Positions 27,564 through 42,029 of a DNA stretch of 45,349 nucleotides are shown here, in pieces. The DNA lies in NCBI RefSeq assembly GCF_027012695.1, contig NZ_JALUYR010000146.1, positions 1-45,349 of the forward strand. Direction: 5' to 3'. The notes beneath the pieces are model-generated. The model made no database searches. It was not told where the DNA came from and saw only the letters and a list, made by a program, of their open reading frames with translations. The stretch is from Thermococcus sp. Lineage in GTDB: Archaea; Methanobacteriota_B; Thermococci; Thermococcales; Thermococcaceae. The first letter of the stretch is position 1. Every line of letters starts with the position of its first letter. A program made the position numbers and the translations under genes.

Positions 27564-27584
27564 GGGGTCAGCCGCTGAAACTCA

Positions 27585-27899
27585 TCACCCATCAGGACTC
27601 GGCAAACTCATCATCCCCCGGAGTTTCTCAAGCTCCCTCCTCAAAGCCATCGCGTTCTCGGGATTCCCTCTTTCGTATCGGGTGATGATCTCATAGATCT
27701 CCGGGTACCTGCTCCTCAGCATGTCGATGAGCTGATTCGTGGGAAGCAGGAGACCGGTATCGCGATAGATGAGGAGCGCCCCCAGGGTGCGAAGCGCGTC
27801 CAGGTACGATTCGTACGCCCTCTCCGGGAGTCCTTCTCCGAGGTAGCGATCGCCGAGCTCGATATAACGACGGGCCCTTTGAATTAGCTCATCCTCCAT
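27585..27899 (-). CDS. Small helical protein, HEPN/TPR-like
   Basis: The protein of 104 residues begins MEDELIQRARRYIELGDRYL. The helical-hairpin pattern ERAYESYLDALRTLGALLIY and the later PTNQLIDMLRSRYPEIYEII are reminiscent of PaREP1/HEPN-type helical proteins, but no RxxxxH catalytic motif is visible. The start is fixed by aggtgggagg directly before ATG 27899 and by the TATA at 27913-27923. It is divergent from the permease gene. Confidence 0.65.
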   Translation of the reverse strand: MEDELIQRARRYIELGDRYLGEGLPERAYESYLDALRTLGALLIYRDTGLLLPTNQLIDMLRSRYPEIYEIITRYERGNPENAMALRRELEKLRGMMSLPSPDG

Positions 27900-27910
27900 C
27901 CTCCCACCTG

Positions 27911-27924
27911 CAGGGTTTATAAGG
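27911..27924. promoter_or_regulatory. Divergent promoter region, near-symmetric TATA
   Basis: GGGTTTATAAGGG contains the self-complementary TTATAA and lies 14 bases before one start (27899, minus) and 28 before the other (27952, plus). A second TATA-like GTTAATAAACC at 27930-27940 fits the minus-strand gene better by distance. Confidence 0.4.
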
Positions 27925-27951
27925 GGGAAGTTAATAAACCTGTCGAGGGCC

Positions 27952-28995
27952 ATGAGGGTGGAGCTGTTAGTCTGGGGAACGGTGGTTGCGGCCATACTGT
28001 ACCTCGCCTGGGAGACCGTCAGACCCCTGGTAACTCCCATATTCTTCGGCGTTATCCTTGCCTACGCCTTCTATCCCGTGCACAGGCGACTCTCGGGGCG
28101 GATCGGTGAGAGGTGGTCCGCGGTCGTAATCTCGATCGGCATGGTGGGGATCGGCGGGATCGCCACCTTCGAGCTCGCGATGATCTCGGTTCAGGTCGCG
28201 TCCTCCCTTTACCGAAACGTCGTCCAGTTCTTCGACTGGCTCCTGGAACAGCCTCTCCCACCGGAGGTGCTCAACTTCCTCCAGCGCTTTCTCGATCAGC
28301 TCATCCCCAGGCTCTCGGAATACATATCCCGGAGTGCGTTCTCGCTCCCCATGTACATCCTCCAGGTCCTGATATTCCTTCTCGCCTTCTACTACACTCT
28401 GGCCTACTCACGGGAGATATATCTGCAGATTGTCCTCTCCCTCCCCGAGAAAAACCGTGAACTCGGAGAGGAGATACTGGCGAGCATCAACAAAACACTC
28501 GGCGCCCTCGTCAGGGCCTGGCTCGTTCTCAACGTCATTAAGGGACTGCTGATGACCCTGGGTTTCATCATCTTCCGTGTTTCCGATATCTACACCGCCA
28601 TCGTGGCCGGCTTCCTGACCTTCATCTTCAGCTTCATTCCGCTCTTCGAGGGCTGGATGATATGGCTCATCGCGGCTGCCTATTTCGCCATGAACGGTTC
28701 ATACCTGCACGCCATAGGCATAGCGCTCTACGGCTTCTTCCTGGTTTCTCCAATGCCCGACTACACGATAAGGCCTATGATGGTGGCGCGGGACACGGAG
28801 CTCGACGAGACGCTCGTGTTCATAGGAATGATCGGTGGGACGTGGGCAATGGGAGTTAAGGGCCTCATAATCGGCCCGATAGTCCTCAACCTGCTCCTCG
28901 TCCTGCTGAAGGAATGGAAGAAAAGGGTATCTAGAGAATCCTCACTCCAGCGGACTTCATCTCCTCAAGGGCACGCTCCTCGTCCTCAGGCGTAA
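27952..28995 (+). CDS. AI-2E/PerM-family membrane transporter
   Basis: The polytopic membrane protein has 347 residues. It shows the family layout: two N-terminal spans (LLVWGTVVAAILYLAWETV...VTPIFFGVILAYAFYPVH), a central amphipathic region (VVQFFDWLLEQPLPPEVLNF), and a conserved C-terminal bundle with GFLTFIFSFIPLFEGWMIW, RPMMVARDTELDETLVFIG and MGVKGLIIGPIVLNLLL. Family members export small molecules or work as Na+/H+ antiporters; the substrate is unknown. The last 22 residues lie antisense to the nicotinamidase gene and look non-homologous, as if the original stop had been lost. Confidence 0.9.
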   Translation: MRVELLVWGTVVAAILYLAWETVRPLVTPIFFGVILAYAFYPVHRRLSGRIGERWSAVVISIGMVGIGGIATFELAMISVQVASSLYRNVVQFFDWLLEQPLPPEVLNFLQRFLDQLIPRLSEYISRSAFSLPMYILQVLIFLLAFYYTLAYSREIYLQIVLSLPEKNRELGEEILASINKTLGALVRAWLVLNVIKGLLMTLGFIIFRVSDIYTAIVAGFLTFIFSFIPLFEGWMIWLIAAAYFAMNGSYLHAIGIALYGFFLVSPMPDYTIRPMMVARDTELDETLVFIGMIGGTWAMGVKGLIIGPIVLNLLLVLLKEWKKRVSRESSLQRTSSPQGHAPRPQA

Positions 28996-40511: not shown

Positions 40512-40530
40512 CCGAAACTTTATAACTTTT
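40512..40530. promoter_or_regulatory. Bidirectional TATA element: S-layer-like gene and C/D sRNA
   Basis: On plus, CCGAAACTTTATAAC is a good BRE plus TATA; on minus, GGGAAAAGTTATAAAG is equally good. The plus transcript would start at about 40547, exactly where the predicted sRNA begins. The minus transcript would start about 10 bases before ATG 40486. Confidence 0.6.
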
Positions 40531-40546: not shown

Positions 40547-40601
40547 CGCGATGATGAGTGAATCCAATGCTGACGGGATGATGAACCCCGAACCTGAGCG
40601 C
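40547..40601 (+). ncRNA. Predicted C/D box sRNA (2'-O-methylation guide)
   Basis: Four boxes occur in correct order and spacing. The C box is ATGATGA (40551-40557). A 12-base guide, GTGAATCCAATG, follows, then D' box CTGA (40570-40573). A 4-base spacer CGGG leads to C' box ATGATGA (40578-40584). A 9-base guide, ACCCCGAAC, leads to D box CTGA (40594-40597). CGC/GCG ends can pair as a terminal stem. A TATA box lies about 25 bases upstream. The D-side guide is slightly short. By the N+5 rule the predicted methylated bases are G in CAUUG/GAUUCAC and G in GUUCG/GGGU; I cannot assign the RNAs. The frame through it is also open into tnpB, which I take as chance. Confidence 0.7.
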
Positions 40602-41915
40602 GAAGAAGAGATGATGTTACTTCAACCCAGTAAAGAACAAGAAAAAACACTCGTCCAGTTAGCCGATACCGGAGCCAAAATCTGGAATCGAGTGAAGTAT
40701 CTAAGACGACAAGAATTTTTTGAAGACAAACCAATAGACTTCAACAAGACTGAAAAGATAGTTTACAGGGAATTCAAAAAGGAAATCGGCTCGGCAACCG
40801 TTCAACAAATAGCCAGAAAGAACGCCGAAGCCTGGCGATCATTCTTCTCCCTCTTAAGGAGTAAGCGGAATGGTGAAATGCCAGAATGGCTCAAACCAAA
40901 ACCACCACACTATCTCAAAAAAGACGGGATGAGAAAACCATTAATCGTCCTCAGAAACGACCAGTACAAGATTGAGGGGAATACGCTCATTCTAAAAGGC
41001 CGTGGCAAGTTCAAACGCTTGGAAATCCAGTTTAAAGGCAGAATACACTTGACGGGGAAGCAGGGGAGGTTAGAAATCACTTATGACCCCATTAAGCGGA
41101 AATGGTATGGTCACGTTAGCTTCACGGTGAATGAGAAACTAATCAAGGGCGAGTGGGTGAGCGTTCCAAAACAACTCTTGGAAAACCTTTCAGCCGGGAT
41201 AGACTTGGGAGTAAACAACCCAATGGCTATCTATGTCGGGAATGAAGAAAGCCTCCTCGTGAACGGGAGACCGTTAAAAGCCATTGCCTTTTACTGGCGG
41301 AAGAGGATTGCGGAGTACCAGTCCAAACTCAACAAGAGTGGTGTTAAAACGAGTAGGAAACTCAGAAAACTGCACGAGAAGGCTAAACTACAAGCGAGAC
41401 ACTACATTAACACGGCGGTAAGACAAACCCTCGAAAGACTGTATCACCTGGGAGTTTCGAGAATTGTAGTCGGCTATCCCGAGGGCATCAGTAGGAATTC
41501 CGATAGGGGAGCGAGGCAGAATTTCATTCTTTCCCACGTTTGGAGGTTTAATTACATTATTAAACGTCTCAAGGAAGTTGCTGAAGAGTATGGTATCCTC
41601 GTTGAAGTCGTTGACGAGGCTTTCACGTCTAAAACCTGCCCTGTCTGCGGGAAGCCTCACTATGGGGCTCGCTTCGTTCGTGGGTTATTTAAGTGTCCCG
41701 CAACGGGGATTATCTTCAATGCGGATTTAGTTGGTGCTTTTAATATTTTAAAGAAGGCCGTAAAAACCATAACCCCGAGTCTGAGCGGTCTTTACGCTCA
41801 GAGGAGGGGTAACGGGGGGGAAGGCCCTCCCTGAGGGGCTGAAAGCCCACTTTGATTTGGGCTTTAGTGAAGCATTCGTTGGAACCCTCGCCGTTCACGG
41901 CGGGGAGGAGGTCAG
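40602..41915 (+). mobile_element. TnpB-only IS200/IS605-type element (left end not found)
   Basis: It contains tnpB and a right end with the hairpin CCTCGCCG-TTCA-CGGCGGGG, followed by AGGAGGTCAG, a right-end form seen in archaeal IS200/IS605 elements. No tnpA is present, so movement would need a transposase in trans. I see no left-end hairpin: tnpB begins directly beside the predicted sRNA and lacks the normal first residues. The left end is probably deleted and the element immobile. The right boundary is approximate. Confidence 0.65.
40611..41834 (+). CDS. tnpB: TnpB RNA-guided nuclease
   Basis: The protein has about 407 residues beginning MMLLQPSKEQEKTLVQLADT. TnpB hallmarks include the helical REC part KEIGSATVQQIARKNAEAWR, and RuvC motifs with Asp in SAGIDLGVNNPMAIYVGN, Glu in VVGYPEGISRNSDR and Asp in IIFNADLVGAFNIL. 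The zinc finger is CPVCGKPHYG and FKCPATG, where the fourth Cys is absent, a form common in archaeal relatives. The active-site triad is intact, so DNA cutting guided by its omega RNA is plausible. Compared with relatives, which as I recall begin with about six more residues before LQPSKEQ, the N-terminus looks trimmed. An upstream ATG at 40551 is open but lies in the predicted sRNA. Confidence 0.88.
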   Translation: MMLLQPSKEQEKTLVQLADTGAKIWNRVKYLRRQEFFEDKPIDFNKTEKIVYREFKKEIGSATVQQIARKNAEAWRSFFSLLRSKRNGEMPEWLKPKPPHYLKKDGMRKPLIVLRNDQYKIEGNTLILKGRGKFKRLEIQFKGRIHLTGKQGRLEITYDPIKRKWYGHVSFTVNEKLIKGEWVSVPKQLLENLSAGIDLGVNNPMAIYVGNEESLLVNGRPLKAIAFYWRKRIAEYQSKLNKSGVKTSRKLRKLHEKAKLQARHYINTAVRQTLERLYHLGVSRIVVGYPEGISRNSDRGARQNFILSHVWRFNYIIKRLKEVAEEYGILVEVVDEAFTSKTCPVCGKPHYGARFVRGLFKCPATGIIFNADLVGAFNILKKAVKTITPSLSGLYAQRRGNGGEGPP

Positions 41916-41935
41916 ATCTACGGCATAAACAACGT
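41775..41935 (+). ncRNA. Omega RNA (reRNA) region of TnpB with guide
   Basis: Four stems follow one another from the end of tnpB to the right end. They are CTGAGCG/CGCTCAG (41781-41801, perfect 7 bp), CCCTC/GAGGG (41825-41837), AAAGCCC/GGGCTTT (41842-41865, perfect 7 bp) and CCTCGCCG/CGGCGGGG (41886-41905). This matches the scaffold layout of TnpB omega RNAs, which overlap the tnpB 3' end. The guide would be the bases just beyond the right end, starting about 41916 with ATCTACGGCATAAACAACGT. No separate promoter is visible; processing from the tnpB message is likely. Confidence 0.62.
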
Positions 41936-42029
41936 TGCGGACTTCACTCCCCTCCAGTACGTGAACGCTATGGTCATAACGAGCACCTTCGCGGTAATAG
42001 GGGCGATAGCTGTGGACATGGTGAGATGA
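41916..42029 (+). pseudogene. C-terminal fragment of a membrane-protein gene broken at the transposon right end
   Basis: Immediately after the transposon end, one frame reads IYGINNVADFTPLQYVNAMV, then ITSTFAVIGAIAVDMVR and TGA. It is clearly coding-like, with one membrane span, and its stop is followed at once by the ATG of the next gene, as in an operon. The 5' part is not found on the left of tnpB. The parent gene may have been a permease or a small single-span protein; I cannot name it. Confidence 0.65.

Follow-up and report, generated by a model that had tools for sequence, protein, structure and literature searches.

The frame that opens at ATG 40551 in the 45,349-nucleotide Thermococcus stretch analyzed here (the window) stays open to 41834 and reads as a TnpB protein, and its first codons also carry the boxes of a C/D box sRNA; are these bases a guide RNA gene, the start of a protein, or both? 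The arrangement described in the earlier note, ATGATGA-12-CTGA-4-ATGATGA-9-CTGA within 47 bases, is exact. On the forward strand, the C box ATGATGA (40551-40557), the D' box CTGA (40570-40573), the C' box ATGATGA (40578-40584) and the D box CTGA (40594-40597) are found in this order and at the usual spacing, with spacers of 12 nt (C-D'), 4 nt (D'-C') and 9 nt (C'-D); the C box also holds the first two in-frame ATG codons, and the C' box holds two further ones. The short pairing stem can also be formed, with three terminal pairs (C40547-G40600, G40548-C40599 and C40549-G40598) and with G40550 unpaired. When the RNA is compared with the known sR families, the 53 nt at 40547-40599 (+) fall in the Rfam family sR46 (RF01130), with a cmscan score of 70.9 bits (E 1.4e-14 for the window) against a gathering cut-off of 50 bits, and this is the only match above threshold in the whole window. 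The start proposed previously (40547) agrees with this match, and the proposed end (40601) lies 2 bases beyond it; the expectation that an annotation pipeline would miss the RNA gene does not hold for an Rfam scan, which picks it up. The four-box pattern has no match on either strand of 60 first-order Markov windows and this, together with the Rfam match, argues that the arrangement is not due to chance.

The RNA is preceded by a TATA box, TTTATAA, at 40519-40525 (+), 32 nt before ATG 40551 and, as had been claimed, at the right distance for a transcript start near 40547. This position is kept among the loci, the first T of TTTATW being 32 to 34 nt upstream of the ATG in 60 of the 70 loci scored, so that the first base of the RNA should roughly mark the transcript start. 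In T. kodakarensis, the median distance between the TATA box and the transcript start is about 23 bp, and 5' UTRs of 8 nt or less are counted as leaderless (PMC4247193). Transcription of sR46 is thus predicted to begin from its own TATA promoter at or next to the first RNA base, and, with about 4 nt of 5' UTR, translation from the C-box ATG would be leaderless.

A second C/D box sRNA is seen elsewhere in the window, at 27566-27618 (-). It overlaps the 3' end of a gene at 27585-28040 (-), the stop codon of which lies within its C' region. Its boxes and D' guide are identical in five relatives, and its best Rfam matches are just below the cut-off (snoPyro_CD, 43.1 of 45 bits; sR23, 34.8 of 45 bits).

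The two guides of sR46 differ in their targets. The D' guide GTGAATCCAATG (40558-40569, +) is nearly invariant across the sR46 loci and is complementary to rRNA directly beside the D' box, forming 10 Watson-Crick pairs with the 16S sequence ...TTTAATTGGATTCAACG...; this pairing with 16S (...GGTTTAATTGGATTCAACGCC...) is found in each of the three relatives used for the target scan (G001, G011 and G013), the rRNA being absent from the window's own assembly. The base predicted to be methylated by the N+5 rule is the first G of UUGGA in 16S rRNA, which we take, from a hand count starting at m2G966/m5C967, to be near E. coli position 957. The L7Ae, Nop5 and fibrillarin proteins are established to assemble on the C/D and C'/D' motifs of C/D box sRNAs. 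They would do so on those of sR46, and the D' guide, the complementarity of which is observed, would then direct the 2'-O-methylation of this G. For the D guide ACCCCGAAC (40585-40593, +), no conserved rRNA target is found in the same scan; in Thermococcus rRNA, an 8-bp match occurs in single genomes only and is rejected as a target. In the 56-nt form of sR46, the D guide is CCCCAGAGTGG and has a 10-bp match to 16S rRNA. The window copy resembles the Rfam family in its boxes, its near-identical D' guide, its length class and its terminal GC ends, but, as in nearly all Thermococcus-group copies, its D guide has 3 nt fewer and does not retain the 16S match seen with the 56-nt form. By these comparisons, Thermococcus sR46 carries an orphan D guide; orphan guides have been described before beside genes that overlap (PMC7994747). 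Weak second sR46-like copies (in G005, G015, G020 and G036; L037-L040) were considered as paralogues that could have acquired the D target, and they turn out to be a different conserved sRNA, AATCCGTTGCGGAAAGG.

The conservation of the RNA is independent of tnpB and of the neighboring gene. sR46 is present in all 74 high-quality genomes of the family, whether or not tnpB is there, and a mixed set of relatives has it in 34 of its 45 high-quality genomes; an additional pattern scan covered mostly MAG contigs that were already included in the whole-genome searches. The RNA is 53 nt long in genus g1, mostly 55-56 nt in g13 and g14, and mostly 61 nt in g12. Genus g1 is Thermococcus, because it includes G011, which is T. 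kodakarensis KOD1, with its C/D RNAs at their published KOD1 coordinates. The RNA called "sR46" in T. kodakarensis in another study (PMC9014305; 1371729-1371790) follows a different numbering and is a separate locus. The earlier note had staked its reading on a guide complementary to rRNA or tRNA and on conservation in relatives that lack the tnpB, and the reading survives both comparisons: the C/D box sRNA belongs to a named Rfam family, has a 10-bp 16S match through its D' guide, and is kept where tnpB is missing.

In relatives without tnpB, the frame that starts at the C-box ATG crosses sR46 and continues into a membrane protein of 171-179 residues with a coiled coil and a DUF2391 domain. 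The genes that flank this region of the window also surround sR46 and the DUF2391 frame in these relatives, and the gene that follows the frame there is the gene that follows in the window. In the KOD1 locus (L001), the orthologous DUF2391 frame has the sR46 orthologue (KOD1 87729-87781) at its 5' end and matches PF09622 with 37.7 bits (cut-off 22 bits). When read from an upstream GTG, the KOD1 frame encodes 200 residues with a computed mass of 22.39 kDa and a pI of 4.99; these are the values printed for TK0108 (PMC4473059), and the frame is therefore TK0108. In the cDNA read table of pyruvate-grown T. kodakarensis, the TK0108 locus, listed as "Tko-sR04 + hypothetical protein", ranks first, with the most reads (PMC4247193). 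From its position in TK0108, Tko-sR04 appears to be the orthologue of the window RNA. The two loci share this layout, an orthologous RNA that opens an orthologous frame (PMC4247193), but in the window a truncated tnpB has taken the place of most of the DUF2391 gene. The database start of TK0108 (the GTG of the 200-residue protein; L001 1430-1505) is upstream of the 5' end of sR46, across the promoter region, and this start codon is probably wrong.

The claim that the peptide MMSESNADGMMNPEPE has no counterpart in TnpB proteins is correct, although a counterpart exists elsewhere: at 51 other loci, the DUF2391/TK0108-like frame begins with this peptide. Its fusion in the window is genuine, with a tnpB truncated at the 5' end following in the same frame, and sR46 lies outside the tnpB element. 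The surviving 5' end of the DUF2391 frame covers about 21 codons (40551-40613, +; blastn identity of 89-92% to L028 and L033); the window DNA matches the DUF2391 gene of these two loci up to 40607-40612, and ATG 40611 is the counterpart of their ATG21. The fusion junction, read by eye, is at about 40613-40620. The tnpB that follows (40614-41834, +) has the OrfB_IS605 and Cas12f1-like TNB domains of IS200/IS605 TnpB (PF01385, E 8e-24; PF07282; NF040570), and it shares with these elements the protein family and the element right end, but the left end and about the first 7 codons are gone and a foreign 5' end is fused in their place. This is seen when the window copy is compared with 16 tnpB loci of relatives: copies with an intact 5' end begin with MKR[ST]VTVKLQPSKEQ, or nearly so, and are preceded by the left end or by a small gene. 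In the window copy, the intact N terminus MKR[ST]VTVKL... and the element left end are absent and are replaced by MMSESNADGMMNPEPEREEEMM, such that LQPSKEQ is preceded by MMSESNADGMMNPEPEREEEMML. On the other side, the element right end (41835-41914, +; assigned by eye from the comparison of tnpB copies), which ends in GGGGAGGAGGTCAG, runs with GGAGGAGGTCAG straight into codon ~140 of the DUF2391 gene; the orphan 3' end of this gene, IYGINNVADFTPLQYVNAMVITSTFAVIGAIAVDMVR*, extends over 41915-42029 (+; tblastn and blastn to relatives).

These remnants suggest a history in two steps. An IS605-type element would have inserted at codon ~139/140 of the DUF2391 gene, after a TTAC target (assigned by eye); TTAC precedes the left end in most of the other tnpB copies in which this end is visible. 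A later deletion, from about codon 21 of the gene to about codon 8 of tnpB, would have left the fused frame; sR46 itself was not touched. A mis-join of the MAG is an unlikely cause of the fusion, as both gene ends and both syntenic neighbors flank the element. The tnpB 3' region of the window (41835-41914) is without about 39 nt, a G+C-rich hairpin, that are present in other copies, and its omega RNA may therefore be damaged. A tnpB of the same kind, with 84% amino acid identity to the window TnpB, is seen in the DUF2391 gene of another genome (L028 of G029, 1-1560), at a different codon, and thus the gene has been struck twice.

How the RNA and the frame share these bases can be explained in several ways. 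The possibility that these bases do no more than encode the N terminus of a TnpB or DUF2391 protein, with the boxes as a by-product of ATGATGA codons, is in agreement with the frame being open, and in phase with the DUF2391 gene, through the RNA at all 51 gene-bearing loci of the Thermococcus group (g1 and g11), which are from related species and do not count as 51 independent events. It is nevertheless hardly credible, given the Rfam E-value and the nearly invariant D' guide with its 16S match, and it is rejected because sR46 survives without the frame. Loci without the DUF2391 gene have mostly lost the open frame (L030, L034, L036, L157, L158, L159 and L161), and sR46 is kept in such loci (L030, L034, L036, L158, L159 and L161); in g12, it is kept without the gene being adjacent. 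The same observations bear on a mainly cis-acting role, in which L7Ae bound to the C/D kink-turn shuts off downstream translation and guiding is secondary. Archaeal L7Ae does repress translation via 5' kink-turns (PMC5539422), and Jager et al. raise the possibility of a cis role for some of the 5' snoRNA-like motifs (PMC4247193); however, several genomes keep the RNA after the gene is gone, and in g12 the two are separated, so that such a role cannot be the main function of the RNA, and this explanation is considered unlikely.

It is quite possible, if somewhat short of an even chance, that sR46 is an untranslated leader only, the translation of DUF2391 always starting downstream and the in-frame layout being historical. 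In g13 and g14, an ATG is present just after the RNA; in g14, where RNA and gene are not in phase, this ATG is the gene's own. In the group of loci with 54 codons between the RNA and the conserved GWDD motif, codons 17-26 have a pN/pS of 0.71 versus 0.27 after ATG27, which is preceded by an RBS-like AGGCGAA; this suggests that translation may start downstream of the RNA in many species. Against this stands the frame kept at 51 of 51 loci despite six linker lengths to the GWDD motif (46, 48, 51, 52, 53 and 54 codons). Moreover, there is no ATG, GTG or TTG between the RNA and the motif at six loci of three lineages (L023/L154, L029/L032 and L035/L160), so that translation there probably begins inside sR46, and in the 48-codon group codons 17-28, just after the RNA, have a pN/pS of 0.14, which points to strong coding constraint. 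A fair reading of these comparisons is that some lineages start translation within the RNA, whereas others may start it downstream of the RNA. In at least some species, some transcripts would then probably mature to the sRNA and others would be translated from the ATGs of the C or C' box. The stronger proposal of a dual-use 5' end throughout Thermococcus is put forward tentatively and with some doubt: the AUG of the C box (or C' box) would start the DUF2391 protein, each transcript would become either an sRNP or a translated mRNA, the supply of guide RNA would be coupled to membrane-protein synthesis, and the coding frame would explain the orphan D guide.

The account as a whole, with an sR46 guide RNA that has a 16S target via its D' guide, a genus-wide overlap and a tnpB fusion history, is held with high confidence. 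The C/D box RNA is a new member of a known family with a known kind of 5' overlap, and sR46 itself is ordinary. In a 2017 study, as far as it is summarized in PMC7994747, 7% of the C/D sRNA genes studied run into the start of an ORF downstream; the present locus is alike in this respect, but compared with the genes as summarized there, the whole RNA lies within the frame, both C boxes provide in-frame ATGs, and the frame is kept genus-wide. The present analysis adds that the overlap is in frame throughout the genus, that one guide has a 16S target and the other is an orphan, and that tnpB has been fused to the frame. For annotators, it is a warning that the database start of TK0108 crosses an sRNA promoter and that the N terminus of the window "TnpB" is foreign. 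The RNA is routine; the interesting part is the genus-wide in-frame lock and the possible trade-off between sRNA and protein, and the locus makes the sharing of transcripts between 5'-overlapping archaeal guide RNAs and mRNA directly testable.
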